Shown: piece after piece, positions 21,079 through 35,316 of the stretch
Position numbering within the stretch: position 1 is the first letter of the stretch
How the letters are laid out: the number at the start of each line of letters is the position of its first letter
Assembly: GCA_024998595.1 (NCBI GenBank)
Contig: JACOEK010000001.1
Location: forward strand, 496,001 to 560,000
Source: Nitrospira sp.
Lineage (GTDB): Bacteria > Nitrospirota > Nitrospiria > Nitrospirales > Nitrospiraceae
Direction: 5' to 3'
DNA: 64,000 nt
The notes under the pieces: generated by a model
Told to the model about the DNA's origin: nothing
The model's input: the letters and a program-made list of their open reading frames with translations, nothing else
The model's database searches: none
Position numbers and translations under genes: made by a program

Positions 21079-21618
21079 TTAAGGGGCGGGAGGTAAATTC
21101 CCTTCGTTCAACTTCACGCGGAACGCTTCGCTCTCGAAAAAAATCACGCCCTGGCTGGTCCGGAGATCATAACGAAGGATGATGGCGCTGTCGGTCCCCT
21201 GCCAGTTGAAAAACTTGACCGCGCCGCCGGCCATTTGGCCGGGGGTCTGGTCGATCGGGCCGAATTGTTGTTGCAGGAACGTCAGCAGGCGGTCGTGGGT
21301 CTCCTTACCGGTATACCGGACCATGACGCGGGCGAATTTGCCTTCGATCGTGCTGAACTTCATCGACTCCACTGTTGCCGGTCCTAGTTTCCGAGGCGTA
21401 GATGTCAGTTCATACGTCTGGATTCGACCCGCATCTTCCACTTTCACGAATTGGTCCGATTCGGTAAAGGCCGCGCCCCAAGGAATGCCTTCGAAACCAT
21501 TCGGGTCGTTCTGCATGGGGACGGCCAGCGCCGGAGCGATCGGCGACAGCAGCACAACGCCAATGGCGAGACCGATCAGCCAGCATCGATGATGGAGGAA
21601 AGTCAGACCACGCAGCAT
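21079..21618 (-). CDS. Secreted hypothetical protein, paralogue 1
   Basis: This 179-residue protein has a signal peptide (residues 12-32, ending ALAVPM). The mature part starts with NDPNGFEGIPWGAAF and includes VESMKFSTIEGKFARVMVRYTG and a C-terminal VIFFES strand. It is clearly related to the product of the next gene upstream on the same strand, with the same block order, so the pair arose by tandem duplication. It is probably periplasmic. Similar small NDPxGFxxIxWG proteins occur in environmental bacteria without known function. The two genes are separated by 3 bases. Confidence 0.65.
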   Translation of the reverse strand: MLRGLTFLHHRCWLIGLAIGVVLLSPIAPALAVPMQNDPNGFEGIPWGAAFTESDQFVKVEDAGRIQTYELTSTPRKLGPATVESMKFSTIEGKFARVMVRYTGKETHDRLLTFLQQQFGPIDQTPGQMAGGAVKFFNWQGTDSAIILRYDLRTSQGVIFFESEAFRVKLNEGNLPPAP

Positions 21619-21621
21619 AGG

Positions 21622-22164
21622 TTATTCCGCCGTATCCGACATGCGATCTTGAAAGCGTGGCGAGAGGTTGCGGCTTTCGATAAACACAAAGCCCCGGTCC
21701 CGGTTCGCCTCATAGGTCAGGGTAATTTCTGTGTCCGTTCCACGCCAGGTGTATTGCTGGTTCAACCCTCGCATCATTTGCCCGGGAAGCCGCTCAATCG
21801 TCCCATAGGTCTGCTCGAGATAGTGCAGCACCTGCTTATGAACCTGTGCGCCGCGGTACCGGATGGTGACACGCGCAAATTGCGCATCCACCGTCGAGAG
21901 GTGCAGGCTTTCGACCGGGATGTCGGCATAGACCGGCGGGCGGTCGCGAAATTCATAGTCGGTGGTATGCGTGTTCTCACGGGTGACCGTGAGGTCCGGG
22001 ATGCCGGTGAGGGGAACGCCCCAGGAAAGATCGTGGTAGCCGTGCGGATCGTTCGCCATGGTGATGGCGGAAACCGGCCTGGCCGTGAGGATCAGCAGCG
22101 TGCTGACGCACAGGATGCGCCGCAGGATGCGGAGAGGCGACCATATTGAAAACGCGTTGAGCAT
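21622..22164 (-). CDS. Secreted hypothetical protein, paralogue 2
   Basis: This 180-residue protein has a signal peptide (residues 12-33). The mature N-terminus reads NDPHGYHDLSWGVPL, parallel to the NDPNGFEGIPWGAAF of its neighbour. It also has VESLHLSTVDAQFARVTIRYRG and FVFIES in matching positions. Each seems to be one compact beta-rich domain. It is the first gene of a two-gene unit. The 144-base gap to the divergent phosphonate-type operon holds promoters for both directions. Function unknown. Confidence 0.65.
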   Translation of the reverse strand: MLNAFSIWSPLRILRRILCVSTLLILTARPVSAITMANDPHGYHDLSWGVPLTGIPDLTVTRENTHTTDYEFRDRPPVYADIPVESLHLSTVDAQFARVTIRYRGAQVHKQVLHYLEQTYGTIERLPGQMMRGLNQQYTWRGTDTEITLTYEANRDRGFVFIESRNLSPRFQDRMSDTAE

Positions 22165-22235: not shown

Positions 22236-22264
22236 TTGTGAATGGAGGACCCCTTGGCTATAAT
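22236..22264 (+). promoter_or_regulatory. Probable promoter of the phosphonate/glycan operon
   Basis: TTGTGA (22236-22241), a 17-base spacer and a consensus TATAAT (22259-22264). The first gene starts at 22309 with GGAGCGAGG upstream. Confidence 0.6.
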
Positions 22265-22308: not shown

Positions 22309-22806
22309 ATGGTCGACAGTGATGTGTTCGTGCAGGCGCTCGAAAGTCTGGGCGTCAACTTCTTCACCGGTGTGCCTGATTCTTTACTGGGCGGCATCAT
22401 CGAAGAGTTGCTCACGCGTAAGCTCTACACCTCGGCCGTGCGCGAGGATGAAGCGGTCGCCATGGCTGCCGGCGCCTTCATGGCCGGAAAGATTCCTGCC
22501 GTACTCATGCAGAACTCCGGGCTCGGCACGTCGCTCAATACCCTGCTCTCGCTCAATATGATCTATCGGCTACCTTGTCTCTTGCTGGTGTCCTGGCGCG
22601 GTTTTGAAGGCAAGGACGCTCCCGAACATCTGGTGATGGGAGAGACGATGCCGCAGTTGCTCGACACCATGAAAATTCCTCACCGGACGTTGTCGGAACA
22701 GACGATGGCGGACGACCTCCGGTGGGTGGGCCAGACCTTTATGAAACAGCGGATTCCTGTAGCCCTTCTGATCAAGAAGGGCATCATCAAGGGGTTGCAC
22801 CCATGA
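22309..22806 (+). CDS. Phosphonopyruvate decarboxylase-like, alpha (N-terminal TPP) subunit
   Basis: This 165-residue protein is the pyrimidine-binding half of a thiamine-diphosphate decarboxylase. FTGVPDSLLGG near residue 18, the conserved Glu in VREDEAVAMAAG, and AVLMQNSGLGTSLNTLLSL near 65 are hallmarks of phosphonopyruvate decarboxylase (Ppd) and sulfopyruvate decarboxylase (ComD). It would act with the next gene product, overlapping by 4 bases, to turn phosphonopyruvate into phosphonoacetaldehyde. The PhnW-like and cytidylyltransferase-like genes downstream favour phosphonate over sulfonate chemistry, by inference. Split subunits are less usual than the single-chain Ppd. Confidence 0.8.
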   Translation: MVDSDVFVQALESLGVNFFTGVPDSLLGGIIEELLTRKLYTSAVREDEAVAMAAGAFMAGKIPAVLMQNSGLGTSLNTLLSLNMIYRLPCLLLVSWRGFEGKDAPEHLVMGETMPQLLDTMKIPHRTLSEQTMADDLRWVGQTFMKQRIPVALLIKKGIIKGLHP

Positions 22807-23381
22807 GGCCGGAACAGGGAACGATGCAGAGCCGGGCGCAGGCAATGGCGGCGCTGCTCGAAGTGCTGACGGATCAGCCCGTCATTATCTGTAACGGATT
22901 TCCTTCACGGGAAGCCCAGAAGCTCGCTGATCGGCCGACACACTTTTACATGATCGGATCGATGGGCAATGCTGCAGCCATCGGCTTGGGCGTAGCGCTC
23001 TCAAAACCGTCCAAGAAAGTGATCGTCTTCGATGGAGACGGCAATGTGTTAATGGGGATGGGGACCCTGGCTACAGTGGGCGCATTGCGGCCGAAGAACT
23101 TCGTCCACGTTGTGTTCGACAATGAGGTGTATGGCTCGACGGGAAATCAGCCGACCATCTCGAACGTCGTCCAGTTAGAAAAGGTGGCGAAGGCGGCCGG
23201 GTACGTGGCGGTCGAACGTGTGTTGGACCGTGAAGATCTCGTCTACGAATTCAAAGATATGTTGAAGAATGACGGGCCCAGCATGTTGCTCGTCAAGGTG
23301 AACGAGTTTGTCGAGGATGCCGGACGGATTGCCCTTGAGCCGCCGGCGATCACCGCGCGCTTCATGAAATCCATCGAGTAG
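22803..23381 (+). CDS. Phosphonopyruvate decarboxylase-like, beta (TPP-binding) subunit
   Basis: This 192-residue protein starts at ATG 22803, overlapping the alpha stop as ATGA. It is the diphosphate-binding half: IGSMGNAAAIGLGVAL near residue 52, then the TPP/Mg motif GDGNVLMGMGTLATVG near 78, ending with the conserved Asn in FDNEVYGSTG. NQPTISNVV follows, as in Ppd and ComE enzymes. With the alpha subunit it should decarboxylate phosphonopyruvate, pulling the unfavourable PEP mutase reaction forward. No PEP mutase is encoded in the window. Confidence 0.8.
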   Translation: MRPEQGTMQSRAQAMAALLEVLTDQPVIICNGFPSREAQKLADRPTHFYMIGSMGNAAAIGLGVALSKPSKKVIVFDGDGNVLMGMGTLATVGALRPKNFVHVVFDNEVYGSTGNQPTISNVVQLEKVAKAAGYVAVERVLDREDLVYEFKDMLKNDGPSMLLVKVNEFVEDAGRIALEPPAITARFMKSIE

Positions 23382-23450
23382 TGTCGGCGCACTGAACGTG
23401 CTGGGTGAGCCCGTCCTGTTCCGTCCCAATCAACAGCCAGAGGCATAACC

Positions 23451-24545
23451 ATGATACTTTTGAATCCAGGACCGGTAAATGTGAGCGAGCGGGTGCGGCA
23501 GGCCTTGTTGCGTCCGGACATCTGCCATCGGGAATCCGAGTTTTCCGACATGCTGCTGCGCATTCAGCAGAAGCTGCTCACCGCCTTCGTGCCCGGTGCG
23601 GAGTCGGAGTATGTAGCCGTCATCTTGACGGGGTCCGGCACGGCGGCGGTGGAATCCGCCGTCATGTCCTGCCTGCCGCTGGGCAAGCGCATGTTGGTGC
23701 TCAATAACGGAGTCTACGGCGAACGTCTGTCCAATATGATCGGCTTGCAGCGGCTCGGTGTGTCCGAACTCAAGTCGGACTGGCACATCAGGCCCGATCT
23801 GGAACGGCTCCGATTGGCCCTGCGTCAGCATCCTGAAGTGCATGCGGTGTCCATGGTGCACCATGAGACGACGACCGGCTTGATCAACCCGGTCAAAGAA
23901 ATTGCGGAAGTAGTCGACAGTCTCAACCGGGTGTTCGTTCTCGATTCGGTCAGTGGCCTGGGTGGGGAACCGATCGATATCGCCGGGTCGCACATCTATA
24001 TGGCGGCGGGAACGGCGGGGAAATGTATCCAGGGATTTCCGGGCGTCTCGTTTGTCCTGCTGCGTAAGGGGTTTCTGGACCAGATGCGCAAATATCCGAA
24101 GCGGTCCTGGTATCTGGCCTTGACCCATTATGTCGATGATCAGGGGCGAGGAATCGTGCCCTTTACGCCAGCGGTGCAGGTGTATTACGCGTTTGAGGAG
24201 GCTCTGGACGAGTTACTCGAAGAAGGCCTGACCAATCGTTTTCAACGGTACCGGCGCATGGCATCGAGAATTCGCGAGCGGATGGCGGGCATGGGAGTGC
24301 AGCCGTTCCTGCCCGCGGACGTGCAGTCGAATACGATTACGGCCTTCCATCTGCCCGCCGGACTCAGCTACACCACCCTGCATGATGAGCTCAAGGCGCG
24401 CGGTTATGTGATCTACGCCGGTCAAGGGCAGTTGGAATCGAAGATCTTCCGTGTCGCCAATATGGGAGCGCTCACCGACGCCCAGATCGACGGATTTCTG
24501 GGTGCCTTCGAGGAAGTCTTGGCCGGGGCGGTGGCGCGCGCATGA
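23451..24545 (+). CDS. phnW: 2-aminoethylphosphonate-pyruvate transaminase-like (PhnW)
   Basis: This 364-residue PLP-dependent class V aminotransferase opens with ILLNPGPVNVSERVRQALL and DICHRESEF, a pattern typical of PhnW and related alanine-glyoxylate transaminases. The cofactor Lys is probably in GTAGKCIQGFPG (about residue 190). In the biosynthetic direction it would aminate phosphonoacetaldehyde to 2-aminoethylphosphonate (AEP). It follows the decarboxylase genes by 69 bases and overlaps the nucleotidyltransferase gene by 4 bases. A catabolic role is less likely because no PhnX phosphonatase is present. Confidence 0.8.
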   Translation: MILLNPGPVNVSERVRQALLRPDICHRESEFSDMLLRIQQKLLTAFVPGAESEYVAVILTGSGTAAVESAVMSCLPLGKRMLVLNNGVYGERLSNMIGLQRLGVSELKSDWHIRPDLERLRLALRQHPEVHAVSMVHHETTTGLINPVKEIAEVVDSLNRVFVLDSVSGLGGEPIDIAGSHIYMAAGTAGKCIQGFPGVSFVLLRKGFLDQMRKYPKRSWYLALTHYVDDQGRGIVPFTPAVQVYYAFEEALDELLEEGLTNRFQRYRRMASRIRERMAGMGVQPFLPADVQSNTITAFHLPAGLSYTTLHDELKARGYVIYAGQGQLESKIFRVANMGALTDAQIDGFLGAFEEVLAGAVARA

Positions 24546-25261
24546 AGGCGATTATCCTTGCGGCAGGCGTGGGCAAACGCCTCTGGCCCGTCACTCAGCA
24601 TAAGCCGAAATGCCTGATCGAGATCGGCGGTCAGACATTGCTGTCTCGCTATCTGGAATCCCTGGCCTCGGTCAGGATCAAACACGCGACCATTGTGGTC
24701 GGATACAAACAGGAGATGATCAGGGCTGCCGCCGGCTCGCAGAGCCATGGGGTGGACATCTCCTATCTGGTGAACGAAGAGTTTTATCGCGGCAGCATTT
24801 CGTCGCTATGGATCGCTAGGCAGGTGCTGACCGACGATGTGATCATTATGGATGCGGATGTGCTTTTTCACCGGGAAATCCTTCGTCGTCTGGTGGCCTC
24901 CCCCCATGAAAACTGCCTGCTGATGGACGACACGGTGAAACAGACAGGCGAGGAATGTATGGTCGTTGTCCAGGGCGACCGCGTCATCGCCCTGACCAAG
25001 AAGGTGCCTGATCGGTACGATCTCGCCGGCGAAGGCGTCGGGTTCCTCAGGGTGCGGCGGGCGGATACGGCGCAGGTGGTCGCCTCCCTCAAGGGATACA
25101 TCGACCAGGACCGCTGGGACATGGAATACGAAGACGGACTATTGCAGTATTTCCGTGACGTCAAAGTCGGGCATGAGAAAATCGGGGGCCTCCCCTGGAC
25201 CGAGATCGATTTTCCTGAAGATGTGACGAAGGCGGAACGGGAAGTCCTCCCGAGACTCTAG
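24542..25261 (+). CDS. Nucleotidyltransferase, probable phosphonate (AEP) cytidylyltransferase PntC-like
   Basis: This 239-residue protein starts with the NTP-transferase signature (AAGVGKRLWPVTQHKPKCLI, residues 7-26) and has a metal-binding DADVLF near 102. The fold is that of sugar-phosphate and choline-phosphate cytidylyltransferases. Because it overlaps phnW and precedes a CDP-alcohol phosphotransferase gene, I infer that it activates AEP as CMP-AEP, as PntC does. Phosphocholine or another small phosphate ester remain alternatives. It is probably a cytosolic enzyme. Confidence 0.72.
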   Translation: MKAIILAAGVGKRLWPVTQHKPKCLIEIGGQTLLSRYLESLASVRIKHATIVVGYKQEMIRAAAGSQSHGVDISYLVNEEFYRGSISSLWIARQVLTDDVIIMDADVLFHREILRRLVASPHENCLLMDDTVKQTGEECMVVVQGDRVIALTKKVPDRYDLAGEGVGFLRVRRADTAQVVASLKGYIDQDRWDMEYEDGLLQYFRDVKVGHEKIGGLPWTEIDFPEDVTKAEREVLPRL

Positions 25262-25313
25262 CGCTTGAATACCCGGTAGCGGCGATTCACGAACGGGAAT
25301 TGCGTTCGCAATC

Positions 25314-26768
25314 ATGAGTGAAAGTACCATCCAACGAGGCGCGGAATTGCAGGGGTTGAGCACGGCGATCCTATTGCCGGGCGCCGGCCTCTTTGGTGAT
25401 CGCTCGGGTCGCGGGCTCGCCGATGTCAGCCCATTGACCCACATCGGAGGCTTGAGCCTCTTTCAGCGTACGGTTCTCACCTTGCAACGAGGCGGCATTC
25501 GCCAATTGATCGTCCTGGCCGGTCCGGATGAAGAGTTACTCAAGCAAGCGTTGGCACGGGGCGCGCGGGTGACGATTCCGGTGCGGTGGATGCCGGTGCG
25601 GGAATTCCCGCTCGATGATCCGCGCACGTGGGAATCTCTGGCAGCTGAAGTCCGGGGCTTCTGTCTCGTGGCCGGAGTGCAGGCGGTGTTCTCCAAGGGA
25701 TTGATCGAACACTTGCGGCAAACCGTGCGCGACGGCGAGGCACTGGTGGTGACGCGTGAAGCGGGCCCCGTTGAACCTGCAGCCGGTCGCCGGAATCCGG
25801 TGGTCGCATTTCAGGAAGGGCGGCTGATTGCATTTCATAATCACCTCGGCCAGGAGGGGCGCCAGGTCGCAGCCGACTTAGTGGTGTTGCCGGCCAGTAT
25901 TTTGAACCAGCCTCACGCGACGGCTGCAGCTATGACGAGCGAGGTCGCGGAAGGCACCGGAATGACCCCCATGCGCCGCTGGCTTGAACATGCCGCTATC
26001 GAAGGCCGCGTGCGGGTGGTGGCTGCCGCGTCTCATGCAGGGCTCTGGTATCGCGAAGTGTGGGATCAGGGGAGTGTCGGCCAAGCAGAACGGACGTTAT
26101 TCCGTTCGCTGAAAGGCGAGGCTGAGGGCTTCGTCGATCGGTATTTCAACCGCACCTTTTCGCGGCTGCTGACGCGACTTTTTCTACGATTGAAATGTTC
26201 CCCGAACACCATCACGATGGTTGCGACCGCTGTCGGGCTCGTATCTGCCGTCGGGTTTGGTCTGGGCACGTACACGGCCGGAATCATCGCCGCGCTCTTA
26301 TTTCAATTGGCCGCCATTATCGATTGTTGCGATGGAGAGGTGGCGCGGCTCACCTTTACGGAGTCTCCGTTCGGCGCCTGGCTGGATATCGCCATGGACA
26401 ATGTGGTGCATATGGCCATCTTCGCCGGCATTGCCTGCGGTGCTTATGTTCGGCAAGCCGGAACGGCCGAAGCCTGGGTTCCATTGGCACTGGGAGGCGC
26501 GGCCGTGTTCGGCAATGCCATGGCGTTCTGGTTGGTCACGAAGGCACAAAAAATCGGCGCCACTCGAGGCTGGAACACGCCGAAGCAGGCGGCCTGGTCC
26601 GACTTCATTTTGAAAAATGTGGCGAGTCGTGATTTCTCCGTGGTGGTCTTCCTGTTTGCTCTGCTAGATAAATTGGACTGGTTTCTGTGGATGGCCGCAC
26701 TCGGCTCAACCGTCTTCTGGCTGATGATGGTATGGGTCATCCGACCTTCGGCACGGGCCCGTGCTTAA
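25314..26768 (+). CDS. Fusion of degenerate NTP-transferase-like domain and CDP-alcohol phosphatidyltransferase
   Basis: The 484-residue product has two parts. Residues about 15-250 resemble a nucleotidyltransferase fold but lack the usual GxGxR...PK signature. Residues about 275-480 form an integral membrane domain with the complete CDP-alcohol phosphotransferase motif: D337-x2-DG-x2-AR-x8-G354-x3-D358-x3-D362. This layout recalls the bifunctional IPCT/DIPP synthases of inositol solutes. Following the PntC-like gene, it could transfer a phosphonate or phosphate headgroup from a CMP-activated donor to a lipid or polyol. The acceptor is unknown. It overlaps the next gene by 8 bases. Confidence 0.8.
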   Translation: MSESTIQRGAELQGLSTAILLPGAGLFGDRSGRGLADVSPLTHIGGLSLFQRTVLTLQRGGIRQLIVLAGPDEELLKQALARGARVTIPVRWMPVREFPLDDPRTWESLAAEVRGFCLVAGVQAVFSKGLIEHLRQTVRDGEALVVTREAGPVEPAAGRRNPVVAFQEGRLIAFHNHLGQEGRQVAADLVVLPASILNQPHATAAAMTSEVAEGTGMTPMRRWLEHAAIEGRVRVVAAASHAGLWYREVWDQGSVGQAERTLFRSLKGEAEGFVDRYFNRTFSRLLTRLFLRLKCSPNTITMVATAVGLVSAVGFGLGTYTAGIIAALLFQLAAIIDCCDGEVARLTFTESPFGAWLDIAMDNVVHMAIFAGIACGAYVRQAGTAEAWVPLALGGAAVFGNAMAFWLVTKAQKIGATRGWNTPKQAAWSDFILKNVASRDFSVVVFLFALLDKLDWFLWMAALGSTVFWLMMVWVIRPSARARA

Positions 26769-27756
26769 AGCGGCCCTCCTTATCCTCGGGGCGCTGACAC
26801 TCTCCGCACTGGTCTGGCATATCGGCATCGGGCGTATTTACGATGCGGTGACGCAATTGGGTCCCGCGGCCATGGTGCTGATCCTTCTTCCGTCTCTCCT
26901 TATGTATGTGCTCGAAGCCTATGGCTGGCGCGTAACGCTCGGCACCTGGGCGAACGGCGTGCCCTTTTGGCGCATCTTGGCCATTCGCACCGCCGGAGAA
27001 GTCGTGAACATGACCACTCCCACGGCCTACGTGGGGGGCGAACCGCTGAAGGCCTACCTCCTCAATCGACAGGGTGTACCGCTCGTAGAGGGACTCGCTT
27101 CGGTCGTAACGGCCAAAACGACCATGACCGTCGCTCAAATCCTGTTCATTCTTGCGGGCATTGGCCTGGGATTCTGGTTATTGGGTTCCGGCGGTTCGGC
27201 CGGACAGACGATTACGGCAGGGTTGGTCAGCGTGGGCCTCCTGCTGTTCGGGGTCGGCGCCTTTGTGATCGTCCAACGGCACGGGATGTTTTCGTGGATT
27301 CTCAACATGCTGCGGCGCATCGGTCTGCGCATCCAGTTTCTGGAAGTGCGCGAACAACAGCTCATCGAACTGGATCGCACCATCGCGGGCTTCTATTCCC
27401 ACCAGCGACAGGCCTTCCTTCTTTCGACGGGACTGTTTCTGCTCGGCTGGCTGGCGGAGGCATTGGAAGTCTATGTGATGGTGCTGTGCATGGGGCAGTC
27501 CATCGCGGTCTTGCCGGCTGTCGCAATTGGGGCGTTATCCGTCTTTATTAAAGGGGGGACGTTTTTTATTCCAGGCAGCTTGGGTGCGCAAGATGCCGGG
27601 AATCTGTTCCTGCTTTCCGCGTTCGGATACGGCGAGGTCACCGGCATTACCTTCGCCCTCCTGCGGCGCTTCCGGGAGTTTGTCTGGATCGCGCTGGGGC
27701 TAGGTTGCTTGGCACTCATGACCAAAGGAGCCGATCATTCTCTTTCCCGCAAGTGA
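26761..27756 (+). CDS. Flippase-like integral membrane protein (LPG synthase TM / UPF0104 family)
   Basis: This 331-residue protein starts at GTG 26761, overlapping the previous gene. It has about eight transmembrane segments. The family-typical TPTAYVGGEPLKAYLL near residue 85 and FFIPGSLGAQDAGNLFL near 275 match the lysylphosphatidylglycerol synthetase transmembrane domain family (UPF0104, HpnL-like). Members are linked to lipid flipping, for example of hopanoid or aminoacyl lipids. Here it probably handles the product of the preceding CDP-alcohol transferase. It lacks the cytosolic aminoacyl-transferase domain. Confidence 0.78.
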   Translation: MLKAALLILGALTLSALVWHIGIGRIYDAVTQLGPAAMVLILLPSLLMYVLEAYGWRVTLGTWANGVPFWRILAIRTAGEVVNMTTPTAYVGGEPLKAYLLNRQGVPLVEGLASVVTAKTTMTVAQILFILAGIGLGFWLLGSGGSAGQTITAGLVSVGLLLFGVGAFVIVQRHGMFSWILNMLRRIGLRIQFLEVREQQLIELDRTIAGFYSHQRQAFLLSTGLFLLGWLAEALEVYVMVLCMGQSIAVLPAVAIGALSVFIKGGTFFIPGSLGAQDAGNLFLLSAFGYGEVTGITFALLRRFREFVWIALGLGCLALMTKGADHSLSRK

Positions 27757-33070: not shown

Positions 33071-33985
33071 ATGCCTCTCGATCAACATAAGGTATCAGTC
33101 ATAATTCCAACGATGGGGCGGGACACTCTGTCACTATGCCGCGCGGCCCTGGCGAAACAAACCAGGCCGCCGGATGAAGTCCTGGTCATCCTTGATCGAG
33201 ACAGGCGCGGCGCCGCATGGGCTAGAAATGAAGGCATCGGCCAGGCGACGGGAGACCTTATCGCGCTGGCCGACGATGACGGGATTCCGCCTCCCGATTG
33301 GTTAGAGCGATTGGTGGCTGCGCTCGAACGACATTCCGCAGCCGTCGCCGGTGGCACGTTTCAAGAGACCGATCCGCTCCTGGATGCCATTCGTTGCCGC
33401 AACGCGCTTCCGCAGGTTGAACAGCTTGATCCGGGCGGATTGGTCGGGAATACCGGAAACATTCTCTTTCGGCGGGATTGCCTCATGCAATGTCAGCGGG
33501 AGGACGGATATGTCTTCAATCCCCGCTTCACGGGGGCCGGCGAGGATTGGGAATTGATCTGGCGGTTGCGCAAGCGGGGCGCCAGGATGGTGTATGTTCC
33601 CAATCCGGTGACCCACCTGCGTCGGGCGACGGGGCTGCAACACTTGCGGCATTCCTTCCATCGAGGCGCGGCGATTGCGACGCTGTTTCGGGTCATGCGA
33701 GGGGATTCCAGCGGAGTAGTGCCTCAGGACAGCCTGCTGTGGGGAGAGGGCGGAACGAAAACCAAGCCGCGTTGGCTCAAGGCCATCTGGTTGAAAATGC
33801 TGGGGCCGTTTGAGTGGAGTAAGTTTCAGCATAAACGTCATTTTTGGCTCTTCTGGCTCGGGGAAAAATGTCAGGCCGCCGGATTTTTCTGGGAAATGTG
33901 GCGAGGAATGCCGATGATTCCCGGTGAACCGTGTGTGACGGACAGGGGCCCGGCCGTTCCTTCCCAGGTAGAACGTAAATCATGA
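33071..33985 (+). CDS. Family 2 glycosyltransferase
   Basis: From ATG 33071 the product is 304 residues; GTG 33056 is an alternative. The GT-A domain begins KVSVIIPTMGRDTLSLC and has EVLVILDRDRRGAAWARNEG, ALADDDGIPPPDW as the metal-binding region, and a probable catalytic GAGEDWELIWRLRKRG. No transmembrane helices are clear, though the C-terminal aromatic segment may associate with the membrane. It adds a sugar to the growing glycan. The gene overlaps the LarA-like gene by 4 bases. Confidence 0.82.
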   Translation: MPLDQHKVSVIIPTMGRDTLSLCRAALAKQTRPPDEVLVILDRDRRGAAWARNEGIGQATGDLIALADDDGIPPPDWLERLVAALERHSAAVAGGTFQETDPLLDAIRCRNALPQVEQLDPGGLVGNTGNILFRRDCLMQCQREDGYVFNPRFTGAGEDWELIWRLRKRGARMVYVPNPVTHLRRATGLQHLRHSFHRGAAIATLFRVMRGDSSGVVPQDSLLWGEGGTKTKPRWLKAIWLKMLGPFEWSKFQHKRHFWLFWLGEKCQAAGFFWEMWRGMPMIPGEPCVTDRGPAVPSQVERKS

Positions 33986-35316
33986 GCGACGTGCAGTTGC
34001 GCACAAAAGCATGGTTCGGCGATGAACCGTTGTCGATCAATTTTCCGCCTGCGTGGAAGATTGTGGAGGTCGGTCCTCAGGACTCCCCGGCATTAAACAC
34101 CACGGCGATGCGTGAAAAGTTGAATCGGCCCATCGGCTCGCGACCACTACGCGAAATTGCCCAGGGAAAAACAAAAGCCGTCATCATCGTCGACGATCTC
34201 ACGCGGCCGACTCCTGCGGCAGACCTGCTCCCGTTGATCATTGCAGAGATCAGGCAGGCCGGGCTGGACGAACGCACGATCACAATTCTGCTGGCGGGTG
34301 GCACGCATCCTCCTGCTTCAGCAGAAGAAATGGCGAAGAAGGTGGGGGCCGACCTTCCACCTGCCATACGAGTGATGGCGCATGACAGCCGGGGCGATCT
34401 CGTGGATGTGGGTACGTCGCCCGCTGGTTTGCCGATTCGCATCAATCGCACGGTGATGGAGTGTGATCTGAAGATCGGCGTGGGGTGCATTTATCCCCAT
34501 CCGATAGCCGGGTTCTCAGGCGGCGCTAAAATAGTGCTCCCCGCCCTGTGCGGCGTGGAGACGACCAGGATGATGCACGACTACCTGCGCGGTTCGCGTG
34601 AACGGGGCGGTTCCATCCATACGGAGCTGCGTCGGGACATGATTGCGGTCGCCAGGAAAGTCGGCCTCGACTTTATTGCCAATGTCACGCTCAACCACCG
34701 TCGTGAGATCAGCGGTCTGTTTGCGGGAGATCTGGTCAAGGCACATGAGGAAGGCGTGAAGGTGGCGCAACGTATCTATGCCGTACCGGTGGTGCCTGCG
34801 GCGGATATTGTTGTGGCGGACATGTATCCGTTCGATACCAGTTGGCAGTTCGCGCAGGATCGGGGTATGTGGCCGATCGAATGCGCCGGGCCGGCGGCCT
34901 CTCGTGTGGTGATAGCGGCTTGTCCGCTAGGGCTTGGGACACATGAATTGTTTCCCGTGGACAGTCCGCTCTGGTCGCGCGTGGCGAGACGTCTGAAGCA
35001 TTTTCGCCTGGCCGACTTGGACCGTCCGCTCGAAAAGCTGGGGACGGTCATGAAACTCATTCGCCAGAAGCAGCATCGCCTGATGGTGTTGTCGCCCGGC
35101 CTGGACGAACAGGCTCTAAAGACCATGTTCCCTCAGGCACAGCGATTCGGAGATTGGCCGGCGCTGCGGGCTGCCTTGTTGGCGCTCCACGGCGTGGGGC
35201 CTCTGACCGTGGCGGTCTACCGGTGCGCGCCGTTTCTCATTCCAGCTGCAGCCGATCTGAAGCAAGAGGTGGGAGTGCCGGACGCTAGTCTCACGGAACC
35301 GCTGACGTCGGCTTGA
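33982..35316 (+). CDS. LarA-like nickel-pincer racemase family protein
   Basis: This 444-residue protein carries DLTRPTP (residues 72-78), GGTHPP with His109, and HPIAGFSGGAK with His173 and Lys183. These correspond in order and spacing to the residues that hold the nickel-pincer cofactor in LarA, the lactate racemase. The family includes racemases and epimerases for several 2-hydroxyacids and sugars' acid derivatives. No larB, larC or larE cofactor genes are nearby. It overlaps the preceding GT2 gene by 4 bases, so a role in making a sugar-acid or hydroxyacid part of the surface glycan is a reasonable guess only. Confidence 0.78.
   Translation: MSDVQLRTKAWFGDEPLSINFPPAWKIVEVGPQDSPALNTTAMREKLNRPIGSRPLREIAQGKTKAVIIVDDLTRPTPAADLLPLIIAEIRQAGLDERTITILLAGGTHPPASAEEMAKKVGADLPPAIRVMAHDSRGDLVDVGTSPAGLPIRINRTVMECDLKIGVGCIYPHPIAGFSGGAKIVLPALCGVETTRMMHDYLRGSRERGGSIHTELRRDMIAVARKVGLDFIANVTLNHRREISGLFAGDLVKAHEEGVKVAQRIYAVPVVPAADIVVADMYPFDTSWQFAQDRGMWPIECAGPAASRVVIAACPLGLGTHELFPVDSPLWSRVARRLKHFRLADLDRPLEKLGTVMKLIRQKQHRLMVLSPGLDEQALKTMFPQAQRFGDWPALRAALLALHGVGPLTVAVYRCAPFLIPAAADLKQEVGVPDASLTEPLTSA

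Follow-up and report, generated by a model that had tools for sequence, protein, structure and literature searches.

A conserved six-gene cassette of Nitrospira predicted to build and transfer an aminophosphonate headgroup, and evidence for its coupling to an unlinked PEP mutase

We analyze a cassette of six tightly packed genes in a 64-kb stretch of DNA (hereafter "the window"; G000:C6:496001-560000 of a 4.23-Mb genome) from a Nitrospira-type, nitrite-oxidising bacterium. Bacteria of this type drive nitrite oxidation in soils, waters and treatment plants. On the + strand the cassette reads, in order, ppdA (22309..22806) and ppdB (22803..23381), for the predicted alpha (RhiE-type) and beta (RhiF-type) subunits of a split phosphonopyruvate decarboxylase (Ppd); a 2-aminoethylphosphonate (AEP) transaminase of the AEPT/PhnW-like kind (23451..24545); a stand-alone, PntC-like cytidylyltransferase (24542..25261), hereafter the cassette nucleotidyltransferase (NTase); a CDP-alcohol phosphotransferase with a degenerate NTase-fold N-domain (25314..26768); and an HpnL-like membrane protein, a probable flippase partner (26761..27756). 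A preliminary description of the region had reported the first five as one closely spaced run; all of them are present on that strand, and the HpnL-like gene lies beyond the end it had given. It had also read the run as phosphonate logic, leading from phosphonopyruvate to cytidylylated AEP (CMP-AEP). Judged from the genes and their order, the conserved residues (those of PntC among them), the co-occurrence with a mutase and the grouping of the decarboxylase in a tree, we regard a phosphonate pathway up to CMP-AEP and its transfer as highly probable.

Layout and conservation of the cassette

Three of the junctions overlap, two by 4 bases (ppdA/ppdB; transaminase/NTase) and one by 8 bases (phosphotransferase/HpnL-like), which suggests that the cassette genes are translationally coupled. 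For ppdB, we place the start at the ATG at 22803, which overlaps the ppdA stop in ATGA and is the start of most homologues, instead of at the position given in the open reading frame (ORF) listing (22722). Upstream of ppdA, the sequence TTGTGA-17-TATAAT (22236..22264, + strand) matches the promoter consensus at 10 of 12 positions. The promoter had been called good, a judgment that holds for its conservation, as both hexamers are invariant in 13/13 aligned loci (those with a ppdA at least 80% identical), but not for its consensus match, which taken alone is modest (3 sites found versus 2.1 expected).

We surveyed named loci through the phosphotransferase, taking the best 80 of 562 relatives. 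The full set of six genes is present in 64 of these 80 loci, so the grouping is not due to chance. Candidatus Nitrospira defluvii is among the bacteria that carry this cassette (L180). Half of the 16 incomplete loci are labelled Nitrospirota: seven of them lie at contig ends, and in the other, L174, the phosphotransferase was matched by tblastn and missed by the ORF search. The remaining eight, labelled as other phyla, have a phosphotransferase homologue without Ppd or transaminase; an HpnL-like gene is present in four of them, one of which (L202) also has an NTase-like match. Separately, a tandem pair of small paralogues with a signal-like start lies on the - strand of the window (21079-21618 and 21622-22164); the one that was tested had no Pfam match. 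A pair of such small paralogues adjoins ppdA also in L114, L263 and L264, which come from relatives that lack a mutase.

The PEP mutase and its coupling to the cassette

Phosphonopyruvate would be supplied by phosphoenolpyruvate (PEP) mutase, which the preliminary description had found missing from the run. There is indeed no PF13714 match anywhere in the window. Of the two explanations that it had offered, a mutase elsewhere in the genome or a different substrate such as a sulfonate, the first is borne out. Three PF13714 matches occur in this genome, and the one on contig C2 (G000:C2:89426-91060) is a 544-aa protein that joins a PEP mutase to an NTase domain: it carries the EDKXXXXXNS motif as EDKLFPKTNS, scores 383.3 bits on TIGR02320 (cut-off 319.55), and has the Mytilus PEP mutase as its best relative of solved structure (429.5 bits). 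Directly after it comes a single-chain Ppd of 379 aa (489.8 bits, cut-off 312.5) and, further on, genes that we named by eye as polysaccharide-export-like. We take the match on C15, a 312-aa protein with KKCGH, to be a lyase-like enzyme, and the weak match at C6:598872, outside the window, is presumably ketopantoate hydroxymethyltransferase-like; both names are based on the sequence.

Across a phylum sample of 198 genomes, the phosphotransferase query matches 63, of which 55 are strong (families f1, f2 and f6) and eight are weak or distant. By TIGR02320, every one of the 55 strong cassette genomes has exactly one type of fused mutase, with 44 canonical and above the cut-off, 11 of a second type (270-290 bits), and none with both or neither; this one-type-only count covers those 55 genomes, and relatedness inflates co-occurrence counts of this kind. 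Among the eight weak genomes, just G174 has a mutase match at E ≤ 1e-30, and there the mutase, a Ppd and the phosphotransferase homologue are neighbours (L085). For the order, we compared the 153 of 235 genomes with a completeness of 90% or more and a contamination of 5% or less; lyase-like matches were not accepted as a mutase. Mutase and phosphotransferase occur together in 138 of them, neither occurs in eight, and seven are discordant, with the cassette phosphotransferase present in 143 overall. Genome content thus supports a coupling of the cassette to PEP mutase. As a side observation, G175 encodes, beside its fused mutase, an extra stand-alone PEP-mutase-like protein (L100:4622-6004) with EDKKGLKRNS and 400.4 bits on TIGR02320.

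The second mutase type ("type 2") is a PEP-mutase-like fusion that stands in place of the canonical enzyme, as at L070:10816-12495 and, in similar form, in L071, L072, L076, L077, L079, L080, L096 and L098. It does not pass as a PEP mutase by the usual signs, since it scores 271.6 bits on TIGR02320 (cut-off 319.55) and its loop reads EDN[VI][YF]PKRCS instead of EDKXXXXXNS, which in Mytilus numbering changes K116 to Asn, T121 to Arg and N122 to Cys. The loop is found in 23 of 24 aligned rows, which cover nine of the sample's 11 type-2 genomes and are not all independent (L168 and L172 seemingly duplicate the contigs of L070 and L071). The exception is L148, whose unfitting loop also keeps it out of the 14 type-2 loci counted among the best 80. 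Of the further active-site positions of PEP mutase, W44, D58, D85, D87, E114, K120, S123, R159 and H190 are kept in these 23 rows, and S46 is Gly in three. The KRC of the loop is reminiscent of superfamily lyases, yet the best solved relative is the PEP mutase 5unc (288.3 bits), followed by phosphonopyruvate hydrolase (236.9 bits) and the Mytilus mutase (218.6 bits). In an 18-row tree with a midpoint root, the six type-2 rows (87/81) fall outside the group formed by PepM and hydrolase (95/92). The type-2 gene is located within ~6 kb of the cassette in 9/11 type-2 genomes; in G131 (L103/L104), the NTase gene stands not in the cassette but next to pepM, with a four-base overlap. By score alone, type 2 is present in 63 of the 235 genomes of the order, among the matches listed. 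Because the two types occur one at a time and type 2 is linked to the cassette, we infer that the type-2 fusion may act like a PEP mutase and make phosphonopyruvate.

Decarboxylase, transaminase and cytidylyltransferase

The two decarboxylase subunits carry PF02776 (TPP_enzyme_N; PpdA) and PF02775 (TPP_enzyme_C; PpdB), and the enzyme is homologous to the sulfopyruvate decarboxylase ComDE. Were PpdAB a sulfopyruvate decarboxylase, the transaminase would yield taurine and the later enzymes would use it, and the family models leave room for such a sulfonate route, because they fit the subunits about equally: PpdA scores 132.5 bits on the Ppd model TIGR03297 and 111.9 on the ComDE model TIGR03845 (below its cut-off of 147.95), while PpdB scores 175.9 on TIGR03297 and 188.7 on the ComE model TIGR03846 (below its cut-off of 221.5). 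Both subunits are also under the TIGR03297 cut-off (312.5), but this model describes a full-length single chain. The best solved relative of each subunit is RhiEF (9iz3_A, 101.8 bits; 9iz3_B, 99.1 bits), described in PMC12141560 as the characterised phosphonopyruvate decarboxylase of rhizocticin biosynthesis (PDB 9iz3/9iz4). As the RhiE and RhiF fragments themselves score only 105 and 152.1 bits, the TIGR03297 cut-off is unable to judge split enzymes. Their preference between the models is also mixed, in the opposite way to that of PpdA and PpdB, so we set the family models aside as a discriminator and used a tree instead.

The tree is unrooted and has 21 rows, with a long and partial RhiEF row and without methanogen ComDE; its ComDE references are seven fused ComDE-like proteins of other Nitrospirota, and the three that were checked each lie beside a cysteate synthase (TIGR03844, 449-464 bits, cut-off 324.9). 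The split enzyme, RhiEF and Ppd fall together, apart from all seven ComDE-like rows, on a 100/100 branch, with weak support for the split enzyme plus RhiEF (84/72) and better support for the split enzyme alone (98/94). PpdAB hence groups with Ppd and RhiEF, and it is removed from ComDE by both cut-offs and by the tree. ComA was not found in 14 of the 15 genomes tested, this one included (cysteate synthase was not searched for in this genome); the coupling of the cassette to PEP mutase has no place in a sulfonate route; and an anhydride of CMP with a sulfonate would be an unusual donor. We therefore hold the sulfonate route to be extremely improbable. A genome devoid of the mutase, together with a decarboxylase clustering with ComDE, is what the preliminary description had named as speaking against a phosphonate; we find a mutase on C2 and a fully supported branch between PpdAB and ComDE. 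The split enzyme is the sole Ppd-like protein found (E 1e-20) in 40 of the 55 cassette genomes, and the other 15 have a single-chain Ppd. In L213, L214 and L216, from other Nitrospirota families, a fused ComDE-like protein adjoins a cysteate synthase, which suggests sulfonate or coenzyme M-type synthesis in those organisms.

For the transaminase, the best family is TIGR03301 (344.8 bits) and the best solved relatives are AEP transaminases (9kk8, 187.4 bits; 1m32, 187.0 bits). K191 aligns with the lysine of NKCIQG in 1m32, and we take it, from this alignment, to be the lysine that holds pyridoxal phosphate (PLP). It is invariant in 24/24 aligned rows from mutase-bearing genomes. A different picture emerges in nine genomes of family f1 (G060, G141 and G328-G334; loci L254-L262; two of them just 76-77% complete), in which neither a mutase nor the phosphotransferase was found (G141 has a lyase-like protein) and in two of which, the two where it was sought, the cassette NTase was not found either. 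In each of the nine, ppdA, ppdB and the transaminase gene survive side by side with their reading frames intact, and in the seven loci with wider context this trio is followed, at most 4 kb away and on the same strand, by a carbon-starvation-type transporter (named by eye). K191 is lost in 9/9 of these transaminases (V, G, D or E), and S70 of PpdA is Ala in 9/9 genomes. The loss of transamination chemistry thus appears to go hand in hand with the loss of the mutase, in support of the phosphonate pathway.

These genomes also bear on another explanation, in which the cassette makes a phosphate ester: 3-phosphohydroxypyruvate would be decarboxylated, the transaminase would give phosphoethanolamine, and the NTase would give CDP-ethanolamine. 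Such a route is isosteric with that through phosphonates. It could do without a mutase, in keeping with the retention of the trio in the nine mutase-less genomes, but their transaminases are without the PLP lysine and the coupling to PEP mutase elsewhere is left unexplained.

Three NTase-fold domains, in the cassette NTase, the fused mutases and the phosphotransferase, are available for the cytidylyl transfer. In Treponema denticola PntC, R15, K25 and K153 are assigned to catalysis, and E196 and E104 lie near the AEP amine (Rice et al. 2019, PMC6697681). The cassette NTase, whose best solved relative is the T. denticola PntC-AEPT 6pd1 (56.8 bits), retains R15, K25, D106, K153 and E196, and four of these (R15, K25, K153, E196) are present in all five cassette NTases compared. 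The NTase domains fused to the mutases (n = 5, both mutase types) keep K25 in every case, K153 in one, and R15 and E196 in none; the N-domain of the phosphotransferase (two rows) is without R15, K25 and K153. Because of these residues, the cassette NTase is likely PntC; the mutase-fused domain, considered as a working PntC, is a less likely candidate, and it may have another substrate or a structural role. The phosphate ester finds some further comfort here, in that position E104 is Asp in 5/5 cassette NTases, as in the phosphocholine enzyme LicC, which the cassette NTase resembles at 49.3 bits (versus 56.8 for PntC). It carries Glu at PntC E196, however, where LicC has Asp, and with the mutase coupling and the lysine loss also to be accounted for, we consider the phosphate ester very unlikely.

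Several observations weigh against the phosphonate pathway. The transaminase, despite its best family, is below the TIGR03301 cut-off (344.8 vs 360.8), which is passed by 0/57 matched genomes of the phylum sample, and the decarboxylase models are as even-handed as described above. Among the seven discordant genomes of the order, five have the phosphotransferase without a mutase (G247, G286, G302, G373 and G204, with the lack in G373 being presumed) and two the reverse (G316 and G203); all seven are at most 95% complete. The intact trio of the nine mutase-less genomes is, moreover, under purifying selection, with ratios of nonsynonymous to synonymous rates in close pairs of 0.02-0.14 for ppdB and 0.09-0.22 for the transaminase, compared with 0.04-0.06 in pairs that have the mutase (and in which synonymous sites are nearly saturated). 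It is thus still selected, and so has, or has gained, another use without the mutase. Taken over their whole length, the proteins of the nine also show no clear excess of change over those of mutase-bearing relatives at the same distance: among the positions that do not vary in 17 f1 rows with a mutase, 12-32 are altered in the mutase-less rows and 13-24 in mutase-bearing rows of f2. General decay was considered as the cause of the lysine loss and rejected, as the whole proteins are not plainly more decayed and the change is at particular sites.

The phosphotransferase, its acceptor and the proposed pathway

The phosphotransferase matches PF01066 (38.1 bits, cut-off 22) and carries the motif of CDP-alcohol phosphotransferases, D(x)2DG(x)2AR(x)8G(x)3D(x)3D, with D337, D340, G341, A344, R345, G354, D358 and D362 invariant in 23 rows. 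An AlphaFold2 (AF2) model (mean pLDDT 83.2, pTM 0.80) aligns best with IPCT-DIPPS (4mnd; 478 alignment columns, E 3.1e-18) and next with AF2299 (4o6m), and indicates the fold of these two proteins, an NTase-fold domain followed by a CDP-alcohol phosphotransferase. In contrast to both, the N-domain here is without the catalytic Arg and Lys of the NTase motif, and the active NTase is predicted to be a separate gene; the donor would be CMP-AEP. The HpnL-like protein matches PF03706 (110.9 bits) and scores below the cut-off of the HpnL model TIGR03476 (150.3 vs 195.65 bits). Its gene is present in 22/23 of the relatives' cassette loci, the exception being L079, where the stretch is cut at a contig end. 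In L137, L140, L142 and L182, three HpnL-like genes, not one, lie downstream of the phosphotransferase.

Where the headgroup would go is less certain. After the cassette, the window continues with glycosyltransferase (GT2) and Wzx-like, flippase-like genes, and the same pathway may end in a phosphonoglycan, with the cassette decorating the polysaccharide that these genes make. Such an end would be in line with PMC6697681, where most known tailoring pathways are thought to lead to surface glycans or lipids. Still, the GT2 neighbour recurs in only 1/23 of the relatives' cassette loci (stretches of 9-15 kb), namely L067 of the same genus, versus 22/23 for the HpnL-like gene, and the transferase belongs to the CDP-alcohol (lipid or polyol) family and does not resemble LicD. 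Since the polysaccharide genes are thus outside the conserved unit, we regard a phosphonoglycan as possible but rather doubtful and, given the phosphonate pathway, lean slightly toward a lipid acceptor. Within the run of polysaccharide genes, the window also encodes a protein with a lactate racemase N-terminal domain (33982-35316, + strand; PF09861, 175.9 bits).

One particular lipid, a phosphonate-bearing hopanoid in which the phosphotransferase and the HpnL-like protein put AEP on the bacteriohopanepolyol side chain, was entertained because in L130 and L181 (metagenome-assembled genomes, or MAGs, labelled as other phyla) the phosphotransferase homologue is beside the hopanoid side-chain genes hpnJ (736.1 and 731.2 bits, cut-off 577.6) and hpnI (313.1 and 388.3 bits, cut-off 310), with an HpnL-like gene near. 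We think this product improbable, and we know of no AEP-hopanoid. Co-occurrence with hpnH is not informative: the gene is present in 55/55 cassette genomes of the phylum sample, but G060 and G141, where the phosphotransferase is lacking, have it too, as do 33 genomes that lack the cassette; this counts against the hopanoid. In this genome, hpnI and hpnJ were not recognised by eye in the 19.5 kb around hpnH. The presence of shc and hpnH in marine Nitrospirales has been published (PMC10579370). A further locus, L145, resembles L130 and L181 in context and has a phosphotransferase homologue and an HpnL-like gene; its title, a Klebsiella pneumoniae MAG, looks wrong.

The predicted chemical steps, acceptor and transport role would combine as follows. 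The PEP mutase encoded on C2 would convert PEP to phosphonopyruvate, which PpdAB, beside the second, single-chain Ppd next to the mutase, would decarboxylate to phosphonoacetaldehyde. The transaminase would turn this into AEP and the stand-alone PntC-like enzyme would turn AEP into CMP-AEP. From CMP-AEP, the CDP-alcohol phosphotransferase would pass the aminoethylphosphonyl group to an alcohol, most likely on a membrane lipid; the product would then be moved across the membrane by the HpnL-like protein.

Much of this has counterparts in known systems. The Pnt clusters of T. denticola, Olsenella uli and Atopobium rimae, as presented in PMC6697681, likewise comprise PEP mutase, Ppd, AEP transaminase and PntC, and also pair a mutase-NTase fusion with a separate NTase; the transaminase and PntC, adjacent here, are fused in T. 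denticola. The Nitrospira system differs in its unlinked mutase, in its split decarboxylase, and in the enzymes proposed for the last step, a CDP-alcohol phosphotransferase with an HpnL-like partner instead of the LicD-like phosphotransferases or glycosyltransferases named in that article. Neither "Nitrospira" nor "alcohol" appears in its main text. RhiEF shares the two-subunit architecture and falls on the same side of the 100/100 branch, but serves, as given in PMC12141560, the synthesis of a small antibiotic, rhizocticin, whereas the enzyme here is part of a headgroup cassette.

The phosphonate potential of Nitrospira is already known: one study reported phosphonate clusters in every one of its Nitrospira MAGs (PMC9765116), and pepM has been reported in Nitrospirota (PMC10734540). 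The relevant passages of these articles concern presence, with no cassette, unlinked mutase, second mutase type or transferase in them, and a search of the open-access literature (subscription papers being outside its scope) gave no account of the cassette, the unlinked layout, the type-2 mutase or the lysine-less clade. Against that literature, what is new here is the layout of the pathway and its parts. The mutase-less clade ties transaminase chemistry to the mutase and yet conserves a transaminase without its lysine. Surveys that require EDKXXXXXNS would miss the type-2 fusion, a one-for-one replacement of the canonical mutase in the 55 genomes compared. The cassette also offers candidates for the last step of phosphonyl tailoring, a CDP-alcohol phosphotransferase and its membrane partner. 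If it works as proposed, the Nitrospira order, with the phosphotransferase in 143 of 153 genomes, would be a broad source of aminophosphonates.

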